Shown here in pieces: positions 8,856 to 35,641 of a stretch of 39,678 nucleotides of DNA (positions are counted from its first letter, which is position 1; the number at the start of each line of letters is the position of its first letter). The stretch covers positions 1-39,678 of the forward strand of contig JAFRLX010000080.1 in the NCBI GenBank assembly GCA_017430965.1, written 5' to 3'. The notes below the pieces were generated by a model that made no database searches, was not told the DNA's origin, and saw only the letters and a program-made list of their open reading frames with translations. This DNA is from Clostridia bacterium (lineage in GTDB: Bacteria; Bacillota; Clostridia; Oscillospirales; Acutalibacteraceae). Position numbers and translations under genes: made by a program.

Positions 8856-10166
8856 TTAAGATAATTGAGCATCTATGATATTTTGTTTTGGGAATATAAT
8901 AGTTGTTTCGAATATCTTGTTTTCATCTCCATATTCCCAATCGTAAATACCATTATACTTTTTAACAACACGCATAATGCTTTTACTGCCAATACCATGA
9001 AATTGTTTATCCGGTTTTGATGTTAATAATTTACCGGATTTTTGTTTCGGTGCTTCATCACAAGAATTGCTGATGATTAATATATCCTGTAATTGGTTTT
9101 TTGCTACAATGCGCAATGATATTTTCTTTTCCGCGCTTTTTTCGACAGCCTCAACAGCATTATCCAACAGATTACACATTAAAGAAGTTAACTCGTTATC
9201 TTGAATGTACGAAAGATTTGAGCTTTTTACATCTACTGAAAAAGAAATGCATTTATTGTTGCAAATCATTGTATACTTGTTGATAATTAAATCTAAAGTC
9301 GGGTTCTTACTAATACCTATTTTACTAACAGTTCCGATTTCGGAAAGAAGAGGCTCAATATAATGATGAATTTCTTCTACATCATCCATATTATTGATTA
9401 ATGTTAATTGATTCTTGTAATCATGTGAAATCCGGCGCATTTCTTCATTAGCAGTTGTTACTAATTCAAATGCTTTTTTCTCTGCCTCATACTTTTGATT
9501 TTCAATTTTTAATTCAGCAACTTCTTGTGTTTTTCTTATTGTCCGGTTTTGAATAATAAAAACAAAAAAACTTGTTGCTACAAGCAAACAAACTGCAGCA
9601 ATCCATAAATAGTAAATTGTGCTGGTTATCTCTATCTTATAGATGATATAACGAAAAACCAACATTATAAAGCAATTGGAAAGCGGCACTATAATAATTG
9701 ATAGATAGTTTTGATTCTTAATATTTTCATTCTTCGAAAAAATTCTTATAGATATTATGCATAACGTAAAATATAATAATTTACTAAAGAAAATAACTAA
9801 TCCATAAGTTATCATGTACTTATCAAATTCATTAAAATTATGATGAAAAATATTAGTAAAAATAATAATGGTGATATATTCTGCAACTATCATAGAGACA
9901 GACATGATTGTCGAATGCAATACAGCTATTAGAGGTTTAATACTGAATGATAACCATAGTAGTACCGTATTGATGAACAGAAAGCATATAAAATTTAATA
10001 TTGTACTATTAATTAAAAAAACACAATATAGAATTGCATATCCAACAATAGTCAACGCAATTCGTTTGCTTAATGACAGTTTGGCCTCAAATAGTGTTCC
10101 TGAGTAGTATAAAAAAACAAATGCTCCAAAAATATACATAAGTATATCAATTACAATTTTAGACAT
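8856..10166 (-). CDS. AgrC-like GHKL sensor histidine kinase
   Basis: A 436-aa membrane histidine kinase of the AgrC/ComD class. The first ~205 residues form about six hydrophobic segments. A coiled stretch leads into the H-box RRISHDYKNQ with His248, then an N-box LLDNAVEAVE and a G-box containing GIGSKSIMRVVKKYNG, which is the usual GHKL ATPase layout. Such kinases sense peptides or other signals at the membrane and phosphorylate a LytTR regulator. Its start overlaps the end of the regulator gene by 8 nt, so the two are translationally coupled. No agrB-like peptide processor and no recognisable agrD peptide gene was seen nearby, so the signal is unknown. Confidence 0.85.
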   Translation of the reverse strand: MSKIVIDILMYIFGAFVFLYYSGTLFEAKLSLSKRIALTIVGYAILYCVFLINSTILNFICFLFINTVLLWLSFSIKPLIAVLHSTIMSVSMIVAEYITIIIFTNIFHHNFNEFDKYMITYGLVIFFSKLLYFTLCIISIRIFSKNENIKNQNYLSIIIVPLSNCFIMLVFRYIIYKIEITSTIYYLWIAAVCLLVATSFFVFIIQNRTIRKTQEVAELKIENQKYEAEKKAFELVTTANEEMRRISHDYKNQLTLINNMDDVEEIHHYIEPLLSEIGTVSKIGISKNPTLDLIINKYTMICNNKCISFSVDVKSSNLSYIQDNELTSLMCNLLDNAVEAVEKSAEKKISLRIVAKNQLQDILIISNSCDEAPKQKSGKLLTSKPDKQFHGIGSKSIMRVVKKYNGIYDWEYGDENKIFETTIIFPKQNIIDAQLS

Positions 10167-27687: not shown

Positions 27688-28317
27688 TTATTCCAGGTGA
27701 ACGCTCCAGCCGGTATCAATCATTTTCTTAACTTCTTCGACTGTTTCTTTATCCATTTCGGGCCAATCGTTCAATTTACTTGCAGAGTCGGTTACCAAAT
27801 AGGCTTTTTCCGCACACAATGCAAGCGGCGTATCGGAAAGGGAATCGGAGTAAAAATTATCAATCTTCGGAAAACCTTTATCGAAAATATACCGGGCTTT
27901 TTCTTTTGCATACATCAGGTTGTGAACAAACACGCCGCTCTCGCGGTCAAATTCCGTTGCCACATAATTGATTTCCAACCGCTTGGCTATGGGCGCAATA
28001 ATGCAGGAGGGAGAAGCGCTGATAATCAGGTCATCCGGCTTTTTCTGCGCCAAATACCAGGCGGAAATCTTGCCTTCATTTTTATCCCAATAGCGCTCAA
28101 TCTGTGTGTCAAAATCATCCACCTCAGTCAAGTAGCTGAAAAGCTTGCGCTGGAATTTGTAGTTTGGTAATTTACCCTTTTTTACCAGAATATAGGCTTT
28201 GATTGTCGGGAATAAATGCGTAAAAATCAATTTCGGGTGGCGCTTCATACACCAAAAAGCAAAATCCACCGTACAGTCTGTGTAATAAATGGTGCAGTCA
28301 AAATCATATACATTCAT
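27688..28317 (-). CDS. HAD-IB family phosphatase (SerB-like)
   Basis: 209 aa from the ATG at 28317, chosen because AGGAGAG lies 6 nt upstream. Motif I is YDFDCT (Asp5, Asp7), motif II is a Ser in LIISASP, and the acidic motif is YSDSLSDTPLAL. HAD-IB enzymes are small phosphatases related to phosphoserine phosphatase; the substrate cannot be told. It lies downstream of the esterase and NRPS genes in the same direction, 130 nt after the esterase. A decayed copy of the same gene lies at 33486-33736 upstream of the STAS gene, so the NRPS operon is flanked by two HAD copies. Confidence 0.85.
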   Translation of the reverse strand: MNVYDFDCTIYYTDCTVDFAFWCMKRHPKLIFTHLFPTIKAYILVKKGKLPNYKFQRKLFSYLTEVDDFDTQIERYWDKNEGKISAWYLAQKKPDDLIISASPSCIIAPIAKRLEINYVATEFDRESGVFVHNLMYAKEKARYIFDKGFPKIDNFYSDSLSDTPLALCAEKAYLVTDSASKLNDWPEMDKETVEEVKKMIDTGWSVHLE

Positions 28318-28447
28318 GCACATCTCTCCTTGCTGAAATATTGCTGCGCAAAAGCACCTGTCGCGCAGCAATTTTAAATAACAAAAACGGGGTCTATTCC
28401 GAGTCGATGTTGTCTATTTTCGAAAAACCCTTATCGATTAATTTTTT

Positions 28448-30130
28448 CTATTTCTTTGAAGCCTTAAAAAGCAACACAGCTGCCGTAGCAGCGGATGCGG
28501 CGGTTCCCAGCGCAACTGCGAGTGTTTTGCGCACAAAGGGAACATTATAATCCAGTGTTGAATAAGAAGGATTAATCTTGTAGCGCAATATTGGATTGAG
28601 CAGTTCGCGCTGTGCTTTAAGAGGGTCGCTTTCTATGTGAGGCGACAGGCTGATGATTGCGGTCATTCTGCGCTTTTCATCATACGCCGGCCAAACCAAC
28701 CCGGGTATGGAAGGGTCACCCGTGCGCGCAAAGTTCGCCCACATGTCGCCGACCGTTTTTGTCAGTGCGGCATCGGCAGGCTTGCCGGTATAAATTGTCT
28801 GATCCGGATTTTGGAACACGTAGGCAAGCTCTACCGCATGGCATGCACCGCGAAAGCGGACGGAAGACGGCTCAGTCCAATAGTACATATAGACTTTGCC
28901 GCCGTTTCTTGTGTGCCCTTCCGCCTGCCTGATGGCAGGTAAGCGGAACTTGATTTCATTAAAAAACTCTGACAAGCGCCAAATTTCATGACCCTTCAAA
29001 AGGGACATGAATTTCTTGACACGCTTTCTGTCTGAGGGGCTGAGCAAGCGTATGTCGTTCTCAAACTTAACCGGAACACCGAAGAGGTACGGAATAATGC
29101 CGCCAAGTTCACCAATCCAATAGTTGCTCTCGTTTGCATTGGTGCCGATGAGCATATCGATGCCGACAGTCGAGCCGTCCATATACGGTGTGTAAGGGTC
29201 GAGAGGAATCAGCCTGCCGTCGCGCTGCGGAAAGTTGTTGTACTCATTCAGCTCTTCATTAAGCTTTTTAAGCTCATCCTCCGAGAGCGCCATCAGTTCA
29301 TCCATATCGCGTGCGCCCGATTCCTTAAGCAGGCGGTCGGTGAAATCCGCACAGTCTTCTTTTGCGTAGGTCAGTGCAACCGAGCCGCTTTCGGCAATCA
29401 CGCGCCGAAACAGTCCCTTTGCTTCATCTATAATCGGTAGCAGCGATACACTGCCGCCGCCCGCAGACTCGCCGAAAATGGTGACATTATCCGGGTCGCC
29501 GGAGAAACCGCTGATGTTTTGCTGTATCCACCTGAGCGCTTCAATCTGGTCGAGGATGCCGAGATTCGGCGCATCGGCAAAGTCCTCGCCGCCTGCAACA
29601 GCCGAAAAATCGACAAAGCCCATCAACCCCGTGCGGTAGCCCACAGTGACCAACACGATGTCGGGGTGGGCGGTCACGAAGTTCGTGCCGTCATACAGCG
29701 GGTCAGCGGTACCGCCCCAGCCGTAAGAGCCGCCGTGAAAGAATACCATGACCGGCTTTTTGTTGTCGGAACAGCTGCGGTTACACCAAATGTTTAAATA
29801 CAGGCAATCTTCCCCCTGCGGGTAATAAGACGCCTGTTCGGTGCGCCACTCGGTTTGAATCGGTGATTTGCCGTTATAGTACGCTTCATATATGCCGTCA
29901 TCCGGCTGCACCGGCAGTGGGCGTTTCCACCTGCGCTCTCCTGTGGGCGGCTGGGCAAAGGGAATGCCGAGGAAGATGTTTACATCTCCCCGGGCTTTCC
30001 CTGCAAAGGTACCGTTCACACACTTTGCGGCGGGCGCAGGGGCGCAGTCAGCCGGCAAAGGTCGGTTCTCGCCGTAGCGTGCTTTCAATATATCTTTGAT
30101 ATTTTGTTTTTTTACATTTTTTTGATGCAT
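28448..30130 (-). CDS. Type-B carboxylesterase with C-terminal membrane anchor
   Basis: A 560-aa alpha/beta-hydrolase of the carboxylesterase type B family. Oxyanion-hole HGG at 132-134, nucleophile elbow GESAGG with Ser222, and the QPPTGERRWKRP and EDCLYLNIW signatures. A hydrophobic segment near the end (about 532-552, followed by KASKK) is unusual for the family and suggests anchoring in the membrane. Its ATG overlaps the NRPS stop as TAATG, so it is translationally coupled to the NRPS. It may release or modify the NRPS product, since the NRPS has no thioesterase domain; that is inference. Confidence 0.85.
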   Translation of the reverse strand: MHQKNVKKQNIKDILKARYGENRPLPADCAPAPAAKCVNGTFAGKARGDVNIFLGIPFAQPPTGERRWKRPLPVQPDDGIYEAYYNGKSPIQTEWRTEQASYYPQGEDCLYLNIWCNRSCSDNKKPVMVFFHGGSYGWGGTADPLYDGTNFVTAHPDIVLVTVGYRTGLMGFVDFSAVAGGEDFADAPNLGILDQIEALRWIQQNISGFSGDPDNVTIFGESAGGGSVSLLPIIDEAKGLFRRVIAESGSVALTYAKEDCADFTDRLLKESGARDMDELMALSEDELKKLNEELNEYNNFPQRDGRLIPLDPYTPYMDGSTVGIDMLIGTNANESNYWIGELGGIIPYLFGVPVKFENDIRLLSPSDRKRVKKFMSLLKGHEIWRLSEFFNEIKFRLPAIRQAEGHTRNGGKVYMYYWTEPSSVRFRGACHAVELAYVFQNPDQTIYTGKPADAALTKTVGDMWANFARTGDPSIPGLVWPAYDEKRRMTAIISLSPHIESDPLKAQRELLNPILRYKINPSYSTLDYNVPFVRKTLAVALGTAASAATAAVLLFKASKK

Positions 30131-33117
30131 TATTTCTTCTTTCTGAAAATGGAGGCGAAAATGGAGAAGATGTTTTGTTTATCAGCGATTTTCTCTTTAA
30201 TTTCTCCGATAGTCACATCCGCTTGAGAATTATGTGTCACCATAGTTTGCGCAATCTTCACATAAATATCTTTAAATTTCTCAATGCTCTCTTCTTCATA
30301 TTGGCTTGCAGCAAAGTCAATCATTAACTGCAAACCGTCGGCACCGTCAAGCACCTCAATGTCGAGTATGGTTTGGGATGCCGCCTGATTTTGGCGCACA
30401 TCAATATTTTTGATGTCAAAGCCCTCAAGTCCGCCCATATCACGAATATCTTGCTGATAGAGCAGATAGGCTGATTCTTCACCAACATCGCCGTTAATTT
30501 CAACATACGGGTAACAACTGTGCTCAATGCCTTTTTGCACCTGCTCATGCACATCGGCAAAAACATTACGCAGTGTGTCATCATCATGAAAACGGATGCC
30601 TACCGGCAAATCGCGGAACAACAGACCGACGGAACTGAGCATATTCATATCTTCACGGCCGTTGTAAATCCATGACAGTTTAATATCGGGCGCTTCGTTA
30701 TAGACCGAGATGGCGAGCGCCGCTACGGTAATGAAAAATTCGTTGCGGCTAATCTTGTAGGCGCGTTCCACCGCTTTGAGCATCGGCTGTTCAATGCCGA
30801 GGTCACCGAAAATTTCACCCATCTCTTTGCCTTCGGATTCGTGGTCAGTCTTGGGCAGGCAGGACCATTCAATGTTATCATACCTGTCTTCAAAATACTT
30901 TTTGCTCACTTCGTAGAAATCGGTATTGACCGCTTCCTCACGCTGGCGAAGCATCAGGTAATAGTAGTCTTTTTCCATCTCCATACCCATATATGCTTTG
31001 CCGACATCACCGAGGAATACATTCAAAGAAGTACCGTCAAAGAGCGAGTGGTGCACATCAAAGAAAACATAGCCGGCTTTTTCGGTTTCAAACACACGGC
31101 AGCGGAACAGGTTGCCGCCGACAATTTTGAAGGGGTAAACCAGCGTATCTTTCACAAATTTCAGTTCAAACTCGGAGAGTTTTTCCACATGAATATCCGG
31201 CAGGTTTTCCGGCGCGTATTGCTGCACAAGTTCACCGTCTTTATTCCATGCAAAGGTGGTCAACAGGGCAGGGTGGTTGGCGATGGCTTTCTTTAACGCC
31301 TCCGCCAATTTATCCATTTCAAAAATATCGGTGCTGACCTGCATCATCGAGAAGAGGTTATACATCGTGGAGTTCGGCGAATAGAACTGGTAGTCTACCA
31401 TATATAACTGCTCGGTTGTGAGCGCATGCGGCTCTTTGAGCGCCTCATCGTTCTTTTCATCGGGGCTGACGCCGTCATCTTCCTCGAGCGCCTTTGCGTA
31501 GAGTTCGGCAATTTTAGCCGGCGTTCTGCCGCGGAATACCTCGGAGGCGTTCAACCCGGGCAGGTCGGCTTCCGTCACCAATTCAATGGAGTGCAGTGAG
31601 TCGCCGCCCATCTCATAAAAGTCGTCATTAATACCGACTTGAGAGAGTTTGAGCACTTTTTCCATCGCGTGGCAGATTTTTTCTTCCACCTCGTTGGTCG
31701 GGGCAACATAATCACTCATAAAGTCACTCGCATCCGGTTTGGGCAGTGCTTTTCTGTCAAGTTTGCCGTTTGGCTTGAGCGGAGCCTTATCAATCTTGAT
31801 ATAGTAAGCGGGAATCATGTAGTAGGGCAGGCGCTTCATCATTTCCTGGCGCATCTGCTCACTGTCAAATTCGACATCGTCAATATAGTAAGCGCACAGG
31901 TAACTCTTGCCTTCATCCTCAAAACCGCGTGCAGCAGCCCAGTCCACACCGAGAACCTGCTTGACCGCCGCCTCAATCTCGGCGGGTTCGATACGGTTAC
32001 CGTTAATCTTAATCATATCGCCGCTGCGCCCGAGAAGGACATAGTTGCCGTTTTCATCTTTCTTGGCAAGGTCACTGGTGTGATAAATGCCGTCAACAAA
32101 TGCTTTTTCGGTCTCTTCGGGCAGGTTGAGGTAGCCGCGCACATAGGGGTTTCTAAAGCACAGCTCGCCGGTCTCGCCGTCTGCAACTTCTTTACCGTCC
32201 TCACCGATAAGGTAGATTTCCGTTTCCACCTCGGGCTTACCGATAGGGCAAGTCTCATAGGCGCGGTCAATCGGGAATACGCCGACTGCAAAGCCGCTTT
32301 CGCTCGCTGCGTAAATGTTGATAAGATCAACATTTTTATTGTACAAATTGTTGGCAGGCTCACTGCCGACAAAGAGCATCCTGAGGAACGGACCTGTGTT
32401 GTCGCCCAGCATGCGGACATAGGAAGGCGTCAGGAAAGTAATCGTGATGCGCTTGGTGATAAAGAACTTTGCAAGCGCGCCGGTATTTTTGATGGTTGCA
32501 TAGGACACAACAAAAGTCTTTCCGCCGGGGATGCTCAGCGCTTTCAAAATCACGATAATCGAAGCAACGAAGTTTAACGGTGCGAGCAGCGCCAGGCGGT
32601 CGGAGCTGTCAAACGGTGTCTCGCCGTTGACCTTGATAGATTCAATAGCGCGGTCCAAGTTTCCGTATTCATGCAAAACGCCCTTGGGATTTCCTGTTGT
32701 ACCGGAGGTGTAAATGGCATAGGCGGCATCGTGCTCATCCGGCGTTTCAAAACCGGAGAGCGGCTCAATGCGCATAATTTCATCCCAGTTTTCAGCGGAA
32801 ATTTCCAGCTTACAGCCGCAGTCCGAGCGAATAAAGTTGATACGCTCGGGAGCATAGGTGTCCTCTACGAGTGCCCATGCAGCGCCGGCTTTCCAGATAC
32901 CGACCATCGCAATAATCGGCATCACGCCGCGCGGCAGGTTGATGAGCACAAAGTCCTCACGACCAATGCCGTTTTGCTTAAGATACGCGTAGATGCGGCC
33001 GCTCATATCGTCTAACTGAGTGTATGTAACGCCTTTGGAATGTGCTTCGTCAAACAAAATAGCCGCACCGGGATTCTCGGCGGTATATTGCTGTAACAGT
33101 TCAATAATTGTTTTCAT
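30130..33117 (-). CDS. Single-module non-ribosomal peptide synthetase, order A-T-C
   Basis: A 995-aa NRPS. Adenylation domain about 1-460: A3 YTSGTTGNPKG (136-146), A7 YHTSDL (345-350), A8 GRSGDMIKINGNRIEP (363-378), A10 PNGKLDRKA (449-457). Carrier domain about 470-545 with phosphopantetheine Ser507 in GGDSLHS. Condensation-like domain about 565-960 with HHSLFDG (689-695), so the HHxxxDG active site is intact. There is no thioesterase, reductase or epimerase. The C domain after the carrier suggests that the tethered amino acid is joined to a freestanding nucleophile or another carrier. Located 12 nt after the STAS gene and overlapping the esterase. No phosphopantetheinyl transferase is in the window. 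The A-domain specificity pocket was not assigned. Confidence 0.88.
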   Translation of the reverse strand: MKTIIELLQQYTAENPGAAILFDEAHSKGVTYTQLDDMSGRIYAYLKQNGIGREDFVLINLPRGVMPIIAMVGIWKAGAAWALVEDTYAPERINFIRSDCGCKLEISAENWDEIMRIEPLSGFETPDEHDAAYAIYTSGTTGNPKGVLHEYGNLDRAIESIKVNGETPFDSSDRLALLAPLNFVASIIVILKALSIPGGKTFVVSYATIKNTGALAKFFITKRITITFLTPSYVRMLGDNTGPFLRMLFVGSEPANNLYNKNVDLINIYAASESGFAVGVFPIDRAYETCPIGKPEVETEIYLIGEDGKEVADGETGELCFRNPYVRGYLNLPEETEKAFVDGIYHTSDLAKKDENGNYVLLGRSGDMIKINGNRIEPAEIEAAVKQVLGVDWAAARGFEDEGKSYLCAYYIDDVEFDSEQMRQEMMKRLPYYMIPAYYIKIDKAPLKPNGKLDRKALPKPDASDFMSDYVAPTNEVEEKICHAMEKVLKLSQVGINDDFYEMGGDSLHSIELVTEADLPGLNASEVFRGRTPAKIAELYAKALEEDDGVSPDEKNDEALKEPHALTTEQLYMVDYQFYSPNSTMYNLFSMMQVSTDIFEMDKLAEALKKAIANHPALLTTFAWNKDGELVQQYAPENLPDIHVEKLSEFELKFVKDTLVYPFKIVGGNLFRCRVFETEKAGYVFFDVHHSLFDGTSLNVFLGDVGKAYMGMEMEKDYYYLMLRQREEAVNTDFYEVSKKYFEDRYDNIEWSCLPKTDHESEGKEMGEIFGDLGIEQPMLKAVERAYKISRNEFFITVAALAISVYNEAPDIKLSWIYNGREDMNMLSSVGLLFRDLPVGIRFHDDDTLRNVFADVHEQVQKGIEHSCYPYVEINGDVGEESAYLLYQQDIRDMGGLEGFDIKNIDVRQNQAASQTILDIEVLDGADGLQLMIDFAASQYEEESIEKFKDIYVKIAQTMVTHNSQADVTIGEIKEKIADKQNIFSIFASIFRKKK

Positions 33118-33129
33118 ATTCTCTACCTC

Positions 33130-33429
33130 TTATTCTATCGTAAGGATGTCCGAAAAACCGGTAACCTCAAAAATTTCCATAACGCTTTCATTCACATTCA
33201 GAATCGTCATTTTACCTTGTTTGTTCATCTGCTTCTGTGCAGCCAGCAGCACTCTGAGCCCGGCAGAAGAAATGTAGTCGATATTCTTCATATCCAAGGT
33301 AAGATCGGTGACATCGTCGATGGATGCCTTGATTGCCTGCTCCAAATCCGGAGCGTTGCTCGAGTCAATTCTGCCCGAAAGCGCATAAAACGCTTTTTCG
33401 CCTTCGATGGTTTTTTTGATGTCTAACAT
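33130..33429 (-). CDS. STAS-domain anti-sigma factor antagonist
   Basis: A 99-aa protein of the SpoIIAA/RsbV class. The start at 33429 follows AGGAGA; an earlier ATG at 33471 lacks a site. The conserved loop DYISSAGLRVLL contains the Ser that partner kinases phosphorylate, and the N-terminal GRIDSSNAPDLEQ is typical. It is first in the STAS-NRPS-esterase operon. No anti-sigma kinase or sigma factor is adjacent. Why a STAS protein should open an NRPS operon is not known; it may set NRPS or esterase activity through protein partner switching. Confidence 0.85.
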   Translation of the reverse strand: MLDIKKTIEGEKAFYALSGRIDSSNAPDLEQAIKASIDDVTDLTLDMKNIDYISSAGLRVLLAAQKQMNKQGKMTILNVNESVMEIFEVTGFSDILTIE

Positions 33430-33485: not shown

Positions 33486-33736
33486 TTATTTGCTGTATTC
33501 AGCCTTGCTCTCATGCTTGCCCGATAGCGCTCTGTTTGGATGTTGAAATCCTTCGCCTTGGTCAAATAGCCGAAAACCCTGCGCCGGATTTTCAGTGCGG
33601 CAGTTTCCCTCTTTTGCAGAGTAAAAAGCTCTCATTGTCGGAAATAAATGCGCAAAAAATGTTCGGTTCATGCCTTATGCACCAAAAGGCAAAATCAATC
33701 GTACAATTCATAGAATAGGTTGATGATATACATTCA
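33486..33736 (-). pseudogene. Decayed N-terminal copy of the HAD-IB phosphatase gene
   Basis: On the minus strand, translation in shifting frames gives NVY, then CTIDFAFWC, a damaged stretch, KRGKLP, and RRRVFGYLTKAKDF with IQTERY. These line up in order with CTVDFAFWC, KKGKLP, QRKLFSYLTEVDDF and TQIERY of the intact HAD protein encoded at 27688-28317. At least one deletion near the start, an in-frame stop and further frameshifts make it a pseudogene. Only the first ~85 codons are represented. Confidence 0.78.
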
Positions 33737-33801
33737 TTTGCTTTACTCCGAAGGGTTCTGCGGATGATGTATTCTATTATAACACATAATAATAAAATTT
33801 T

Positions 33802-34575: not shown

Positions 34576-34945
34576 TCTTTTACCTGTTCTTTCTAAAAAG
34601 CATTTTTACACCGCGTTAGTCCTAAAAGCACGCGTTTCACACTCAAATGTTTTATAATAATAAAATATATGCGTGTGATTATAACTCATATATCATAGCA
34701 TTTCAGCGCAAAAAAATCAAGTGATACGCCGGCGCAAAAGCGTTATTTTCTTTTTTTGCAGCGGGCAGTTCCGCATATCTTCCCGCATAGGTTCAGCCAC
34801 CGTGTGCTTCCACAAAAAATACCTCGTTTTTTAAACCCGCAACGAGAACAGAGAGAAAAAATCGCTTTCAAAATCAGTGCAAAAAATTGACAATTTGCCA
34901 AATTATTGGTATGATAAATAAATCAAGAACAAAGAGGTGCAAAAA
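34576..34945. other. Divergent intergenic region
   Basis: Control region between the EFR1 gene (minus) and the DUF308 gene (plus). It holds the DUF308 promoter listed separately. No gene or RNA element was recognised in the rest. Confidence 0.5.
34887..34915 (+). promoter_or_regulatory. Near-consensus promoter of the DUF308 gene
   Basis: TTGACA (34887-34892) and TATGAT (34910-34915) with an ideal 17-nt spacer, 31 nt before the start codon. Confidence 0.75.
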
Positions 34946-35641
34946 ATGAAAAAAGTTTTAAAAAGCATTAGCTCTTATGTGATGGTTGTGTCCATTTTGG
35001 CATTAGTGCTCGGCATTGTTTTCATCGCTTACCCCGAAATTTCTCTTTTCGTCCTCGGCATATTGGTTGGCAGTTATTTGGTGATTCAGGGTATTGTGAT
35101 GGTGGTTTTAGGCATCAAAGCGCTGATTCAGCATGCTCCGTTTGAGGGAATTTTGCCGGGTGTTTTGAGCATCCTGCTCGGTATCTTATTCTTAGAAAAC
35201 CCTGCCGACTTAGCAAACTTTATCGGCATTGTTTTAGGTATTTGGCTTATTGTACACTCTATCGGCGGTATCAAGCTTGCTGTCAACATGCGCGGTACCG
35301 GTGCACCGTGGGTGTTGCTTGTGATTGTCAATGTCATTGGCATTATCGCCGGCGGCTGCATTATTTACACGCCGATTCTCTCTTCCGTGACATTTACAAC
35401 GGCACTCGGCATTGTGCTCATTGTCAATGCAGTCATCAATATCATTGATATGATTGTGGTCAAGATGTTTGTAAAAGTGGTCGATGAAGAGATAGAAGAG
35501 CTCGAAACAGTTGTAGAAGAAGCTATCCAAGAAGCGGAAAACACAGTTGAGCCCGTGGAGGCAACGGTGGTTGAAAACGCACCTGCAGCAGAACCCGCCG
35601 CAGAGCCGGATGCCCCGGCTGAAGGCACAACTCAAGAATAG
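34946..35641 (+). CDS. DUF308/HdeD-like membrane protein
   Basis: 231 aa from the ATG at 34946, which has an AAAGAGG site upstream; an in-frame GTG at 34937 overlaps that site. About six membrane helices fill residues 10-175, in the paired-helix layout of the DUF308/HdeD family (ALVLGIVFIAYPEISL, VLSILLGILFLENPADLA). The remaining ~55 residues form an acidic Ala/Glu/Pro-rich cytoplasmic tail. HdeD-like proteins are linked to acid or general stress in some bacteria; the role here is unknown. Confidence 0.85.
   Translation: MKKVLKSISSYVMVVSILALVLGIVFIAYPEISLFVLGILVGSYLVIQGIVMVVLGIKALIQHAPFEGILPGVLSILLGILFLENPADLANFIGIVLGIWLIVHSIGGIKLAVNMRGTGAPWVLLVIVNVIGIIAGGCIIYTPILSSVTFTTALGIVLIVNAVINIIDMIVVKMFVKVVDEEIEELETVVEEAIQEAENTVEPVEATVVENAPAAEPAAEPDAPAEGTTQE

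Follow-up and report, generated by a model that had tools for sequence, protein, structure and literature searches.

The minus strand of a 39,678-nucleotide stretch of DNA from a Clostridia bacterium (GCA_017430965.1, contig JAFRLX010000080.1; hereafter the window) codes, from 33429 to 27688, for a STAS protein, a single-module nonribosomal peptide synthetase (NRPS), a carboxylesterase and a HAD-type protein, in this order. The synthetase combines an adenylation (A), a carrier (T) and a terminal condensation (C) domain (A-T-C). We found that the STAS, NRPS and esterase genes form a recurrent set, far above the local background, and that in relatives this set is joined by genes for a kinase and a phosphatase, which with STAS would constitute, by their sequences, a partner-switching module, and by genes for a MATE transporter. 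We regard it as an evenly balanced proposition that the A domain activates a hydrophobic acid and that the terminal C domain then hands this acid to a free amine or alcohol, the whole being controlled by a STAS phospho-switch. An earlier, sequence-only reading of the window had described a four-gene cluster; Pfam or NCBIfam domains were found for all four genes, and the lack of conserved co-occurrence that it had named as counting against the cluster is seen for the HAD gene and not for STAS, NRPS and esterase.

The recurrent gene set and its kinase, phosphatase and transporter neighbours

Because the best 80 of 198 relatives were kept, the survey of related loci leans toward close relatives. 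A-T-C synthetases are present at 82 loci, namely the window, L035 and L039–L118; L033 and L034, which lie on the same contigs as L040 and L041, and L036 were left out of the counts, and the NRPSs of L090 and L101 are identical and come from a single metagenome-assembled genome (MAG). First, the esterase gene lies directly 3' of the NRPS gene in 54 of the 78 testable loci. Second, the STAS gene lies directly 5' of the NRPS gene in 43 of 80 testable loci, and near it on either side (at most 200 nt upstream or 2.5 kb downstream) in 51 of 73; L068 and L108, slightly beyond these limits, were scored as having none. Third, when the neighbours within 5 kb were clustered without preselection of families, the four largest groups were those of the esterase (53 loci), STAS (43), PP2C/HATPase (32) and MATE (19), labels that were checked with hidden Markov models (HMMs). 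Next in size come a fifth cluster of 11 loci and a sixth of 10, neither of which matches any of the HMMs used; by eye, the fifth was taken for antisense frames over STAS and the example of the sixth for an ABC transporter. Fourth, HMM matches within 3 kb of the NRPS (a zone of 434 kb) number 61 for STAS, 27 for HATPase, 24 for PP2C and 20 for MATE, against 4, 3, 5 and 5, respectively, at 4–10 kb (547 kb). As the HATPase, PP2C and MATE HMMs had been seeded from NRPS-near proteins, the outer zone, searched with the same HMMs, serves as the control.

On a FastTree phylogeny of 79 NRPS rows, the STAS arrangement (upstream, downstream or none) requires no fewer than 15 changes, so that the STAS–NRPS link was remade or lost repeatedly; for the esterase state, the minimum is 11. 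The absence of STAS from many loci might suggest that it is a chance or housekeeping neighbour with no role in the pathway, but this is highly improbable given the 61 to 4 concentration of STAS matches beside the NRPS and the persistence of the link despite those changes in arrangement.

The NRPS itself is patchily distributed: at E 1e-150 it was found in 7 of the 394 genomes searched within the order, and at 1e-200 in 9 of the 391 searched within the class, with the window genome counted in both. The titles of 65 of the 80 relatives name a ruminant or match MAG-series names taken as ruminant. The hosts named in titles include Oscillospiraceae/Ruminococcus, Lachnospiraceae, Erysipelotrichaceae, Bacilli and one Christensenella, among others. 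A scan of viral contigs returned no relatives.

In an alignment to PDB structures, the serine in the YISSAGL motif of the window STAS aligns with the phosphorylated serine of SpoIIAA, which we take to be Ser58. This phosphorylatable residue is kept in all 61 STAS proteins within 3 kb of an NRPS, and the ExxxN box of the kinase in all 22 separate and all 5 fused domains that score above 60 bits. Pfam confirms SpoIIE, HATPase_c_2 and MatE among the NRPS neighbours: a HATPase lies within 3 kb of the NRPS in 21 of the 82 loci and a PP2C in 24, with neither on the window contig. L042 combines STAS, A-T-C, PP2C and HATPase, and a single stretch of L045 codes for a MATE protein, two STAS-domain proteins, A-T-C, esterase, PP2C and HATPase. 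L080, too, has a kinase and a SpoIIE-type phosphatase; L084 (Ruminococcaceae bacterium P7) shows the arrangement PP2C-HATPase-STAS-NRPS, and L074 (Lachnospiraceae bacterium AC2029) that of NRPS-esterase. Further, MatE and HATPase_c_2 are joined in a single protein of 589 aa in L060 and of 582 aa in the window genome. Like the RsbU/RsbW/RsbV and SpoIIE/SpoIIAB/SpoIIAA systems, switches whose usual role is the control of stress and sporulation genes, these loci feature a STAS with the conserved serine, a HATPase_c_2 kinase with ExxxN and, in relatives, a SpoIIE-type phosphatase; they differ from them in that no sigma gene is seen adjoining, the module accompanies a biosynthetic enzyme and an exporter, and a kinase domain is fused to MATE. 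The earlier suggestion that STAS switches the activity gains weight because genes for a SpoIIE-type phosphatase and an RsbW-like kinase recur beside the NRPS.

The window genome has eight SpoIIE matches above 90 bits, none of them on the window contig. Among four compared with the NRPS-adjacent SpoIIE protein of L042, those of C141 and C68 are 64% and 62% identical to it over 256 and 250 aa, and are candidate trans partners. A second NRPS locus of this genome, on C21 (L038 367-10380), codes for a STAS, an A-T-C-A-T-R NRPS of 1976 aa (R, reductase), a MATE-HATPase fusion and a SpoIIE-HATPase fusion. On C68 (L141 10336-13764), a switch of this kind stands beside another enzyme, with STAS followed by an Acyl_transf_3 protein and then a SpoIIE-HATPase fusion. 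On C2 (L142 2870-6408), one protein joins a STAS to an APH-type phosphotransferase domain (393 aa) and adjoins another STAS and a SpoIIE-type protein; a relative of 377 aa, with 35% identity, is encoded 5' of the NRPS in L045.

The A-T-C synthetase and the esterase

Pfam recognizes AMP-binding (residues 11–329), PP-binding (479–537) and Condensation (576–968) in the NRPS and, beyond A, T and C, no release domain of the thioesterase or reductase type; nor does the architecture include an acceptor carrier domain 3' of the C domain. The earlier description of a one-module NRPS with its C domain last and no release domain is thereby borne out. The protein can be aligned with LgrA (linear gramicidin synthetase) from A into C, the two having the same domain order, whereas LgrA has the A4 aspartate and a second module and the window NRPS has neither. 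As the A3 TSG, the A10 lysine, the G, G and S of the carrier and the H, H, D and G of the C domain are invariant in all 82 aligned members, the NRPS looks active.

The A4 motif of the window, LNFVAS, lacks the aspartate at the amino-group position, with the A10 lysine kept. At the position aligned to the aspartate of SFDG in LgrA, the 82 members have V (74), I (5) or A (3), and none has aspartate. For comparison, A domains of other NRPS loci were aligned in 45 rows, comprising five A-T-C members without the aspartate, five unreadable rows and 35 others, several of which look like near-identical NRPS pairs. By eye, 31 of these 35 have FD at A4 and four do not; an automatic count of the column over all 45 rows gave D 20, V 15, I 3, A 1, T 1 and gap 5, with some of the V, I, A and T rows visibly shifted. 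Two of the four A domains without FD (L010 and L038 A1) lie directly 3' of a STAS gene, the latter being the first A domain of the C21 NRPS. Thus, the aspartate being absent throughout the family and kept in most other A domains, an alpha-amino acid is an unlikely substrate, and the earlier proposal that the NRPS loads one amino acid is probably mistaken. The ten pocket positions, presumably those of the GrsA numbering, read VAISMFIFAK in 62 of the 82 members.

Since the C domain comes last with no carrier after it, we infer that its acceptor is a free amine or alcohol. The sequence-only reading had allowed a soluble or a membrane acceptor; a soluble one is the likeliest way off the carrier. 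Terminal C domains of the rhabdopeptide type use free amines and follow peptide modules; the A-T-C enzyme resembles them, by description and not by sequence, in the last position of its C domain and the amine acceptor proposed.

Gut Clostridia reportedly have fatty-acid-amide synthetases (CTA/Oaa), the work of Chang et al. in 2021. In the portions consulted of two papers, these are discrete A, acyl carrier protein (ACP) and C proteins, the C protein frequently having DHxxxDS (PMC13142362; PMC13060934). The A-T-C protein might be a fused version of such a synthetase, converting exogenous fatty acids and amines into fatty acid amides: the adenylation, carrier and condensation functions, the lack of an acceptor carrier and the gut Firmicutes hosts are common to both, and a hydrophobic pocket without the amino-acid aspartate would fit. 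We consider this rather unlikely, as the published system, so far as the consulted part of PMC13142362 describes it, consists of separate proteins with a frequent DHxxxDS, whereas here a single 995-aa protein has HHxxxDG (HHSLFDG in the window), with H, H, D and G in 82 of 82. Filing the A-T-C enzymes under the CTA/Oaa synthetases was rejected because of these differences in protein organisation and C motif, neither discrete proteins nor DHxxxDS being found; by analogy, they may nevertheless work like them. A word search of PMC13142362 returned no STAS, transporter, anti-sigma or esterase.

The protein could also start a larger assembly line as its initiation module and hand an acyl or aminoacyl group to the carrier of a protein encoded elsewhere, for example the C21 NRPS. 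Such a role would suit the canonical C motif, the existence of a dimodular relative (L007/L036, with two A domains) and the NRPS-like neighbours within six called genes in L069, L097 and L105. It is nonetheless improbable, since no second NRPS appears in the printed examples of neighbour clusters of at least four loci, and the C21 NRPS comes with a first module of its own.

The end of the NRPS is conserved, phenylalanine-rich and basic, with at least three K/R among the last five residues in 73 of 79 members. In three loci that form one clade (L112 12988-14991, L116 12989-14992 and L117 5938-7968), the place of the esterase directly 3' of the A-T-C gene is taken by a zinc-ribbon protein about 670 aa long.

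The nearest solved relatives of the esterase include Est50 and p-nitrobenzyl esterase, with which it has family and triad in common; the window type adds a hydrophobic tail after an NVPFVRK-like linker. The Ser-Glu-His triad is kept in 50 of 50 esterases. The C-terminal hydrophobic segment noted in the earlier reading proved real and usual, occurring in 42 of 50 (a mean Kyte-Doolittle value above 1.6 over a 19-residue stretch of the last 60 aa, counting only esterases with a full-length call); two of the eight below this value (L054 and L102) reach the contig end. As no N-terminal stretch attains a mean hydropathy of 1.5, the simplest reading is that the esterase would be tail-anchored on the cytoplasmic side.

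Layout of the locus and the HAD copies

The features of the locus are collected in Table 1. The STAS start is an ATG preceded by AAGGAG, and the protein matches PF01740 (2e-17) and TIGR00377, the latter over its cut-off. Its gene is separated from the NRPS gene by 12 nt; the NRPS stop and the esterase ATG overlap by one base (TAATG), as the earlier reading had it. The 130 nt between esterase and HAD genes contain a stem-loop, read in the sequence. Scans for promoters and terminators were at chance level (9 against 9.9 expected and 11 against 9.4).

Table 1. Features of the NRPS locus in the window
Feature	Position	Strand	Evidence
STAS protein, SpoIIAA/RsbV type, 99 aa	33130..33429	−	Pfam and NCBIfam; PDB alignment to SpoIIAA and RsbV
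Single-module A-T-C NRPS, 995 aa	30130..33117	−	Pfam; family alignment
A domain, residues about 1-460	31738..33117	−	Alignment to LgrA; family alignment
T (carrier) domain, GGDS motif, residues about 470-545	31483..31710	−	PF00550
Terminal C domain, HHSLFDG motif, residues about 560-970	30208..31440	−	PF00668; PDB matches
Basic C-terminal NRPS tail, NIFSIFASIFRKKK	30133..30207	−	K/R count; helical moment
Type-B carboxylesterase, 560 aa, Ser222/Glu334/His431	28448..30130	−	PF00135 (3e-90)
Hydrophobic C-terminal segment of the esterase, residues 534-560	28451..28531	−	Hydropathy
HAD-type protein, neighbour outside the recurrent unit	27688..28317	−	PF12710
Decayed second HAD copy, 5' of STAS	33500..33750	−	Nucleotide identity to L040 and L039 copies

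The HAD-type protein scores barely above the cut-off of PF12710 and below that of the NCBIfam HAD-IB models. Across the 82 loci, the window, L039 and L040 are the only ones in which a HAD was found within 4 kb of the NRPS, and it is not among the neighbour clusters of at least four loci. It was ruled out as a pathway member because it was found next to the NRPS in no locus other than the window and its nearest relatives. In L039 and L040, the STAS-NRPS-esterase cassette is flanked by HAD copies (at 8959-9587 and 15056-15684 in L040). The decayed copy of the window, which lies 5' of the operon together with an EFR1-type ferredoxin gene, is 70.6% (L040) and 71.4% (L039) identical over 248 bp to the upstream HAD. 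The downstream HAD of the window shares 94.6% identity with the copy that lies upstream in L040, but 81% with the one downstream there. Together with the decayed upstream copy, these identities suggest an exchange between HAD copies.

An inverted repeat, TTGAACA-n-TGTTCAA, precedes the STAS ribosome-binding site in L039, L040 and L041, with no clear copy seen by eye in the window. Divergent from the NRPS operon is a DUF308/HdeD-like gene (window 34937-35641), which a divergently encoded small membrane protein of L035 (7901-8485) resembles by eye.

A proposed pathway and its control

From the gene order, intact catalytic motifs, recurrence and neighbour genes, we infer the substrate, the acceptor and the direction of control as follows. 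The A domain would activate a hydrophobic carboxylic acid without an alpha-amine and load it onto the T domain; the C domain, lacking an acceptor carrier, would transfer the acyl group to a free amine or alcohol, releasing an acyl amide or ester. The tail-anchored esterase would hydrolyse this product or free the acid at the membrane, and the MATE protein, where present, would export the product. An RsbW-type kinase would phosphorylate the conserved STAS serine, a membrane SpoIIE-type phosphatase would dephosphorylate it upon a signal, and the phosphorylation state of STAS would decide whether the pathway runs; in the window genome, kinase and phosphatase would act in trans.

A more specific form of this proposal, which we advance tentatively as somewhat short of even probability, is that STAS binds the A-T-C synthetase, or the synthetase and the MATE-HATPase exporter, and so gates catalysis. 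Partner switching would thereby have shifted from sigma factors to the post-translational control of a biosynthetic enzyme and exporter, and spread among ruminant gut Firmicutes. A parallel is offered by SypA of Vibrio fischeri, a STAS that is the output of the kinase/phosphatase SypE and whose target is still unknown (PMC10120452). Both it and the window STAS would be downstream outputs; SypA controls a polysaccharide biofilm, and the consulted part of the source mentions no NRPS (PMC10120452).

Several observations weigh against this proposal. No STAS is close by in 22 of the 71 scored tree rows. Linkage of the genes is weaker in distant members: among 11 A-T-C loci from genomes of the order and class, scanned with flanks of at most 1.5 kb and including the already counted L051 and L094, STAS was found in 2, an esterase in 3 and MATE in 1, and among the nine newly found ones in 1, 2 and 1, respectively. 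The window contig gave no match to the kinase, phosphatase or MATE, and gene linkage falls short of proof that STAS contacts the NRPS. On the chemical side, the missing A4 aspartate is also compatible with alpha-keto, hydroxy, aryl or beta-amino acids, and the canonical C motif leaves an acceptor carrier in trans possible. A membrane-targeting amphipathic helix in the NRPS tail was tried as a candidate and proved weak, the helical moment being modestly above shuffles (mean percentile rank 70 of 100).

The switch might instead be an ordinary transcriptional one, in which STAS, kinase and phosphatase release a sigma factor, or another transcription factor, whose gene lies elsewhere and which then transcribes the operon, leaving the NRPS untouched. 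This is a real contender, if one we would place below even chances. STAS scores as an anti-sigma antagonist, the window genome has a SpoIIA-like STAS-HATPase-sigma operon on C16, and a promoter-like site lies 5' of the NRPS operon, although the number of such sites is not above chance. Conversely, no sigma-like protein is among the printed neighbour-cluster examples, and none was found in the loci with one SigF-type query, which can miss distant sigma types or a factor in trans; moreover, the MATE-HATPase fusion links the kinase domain to a transporter.

In the literature searched, which left most subscription journals outside, we found no paper linking an NRPS with STAS, SpoIIE or partner switching and no described family with the STAS-NRPS-esterase order and an assigned product, in keeping with the earlier reading, which had not recognised a described pathway here. 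The nearest context found was that of fatty-acid amides and dipeptide aldehydes. If STAS does gate the synthetase, rumen organisms would possess a direct on/off switch for a secondary-metabolite enzyme that operates outside transcription, and STAS proteins would gain a new kind of target. The proposal would also predict a family of acyl conjugates, not yet known, from several Firmicute families.

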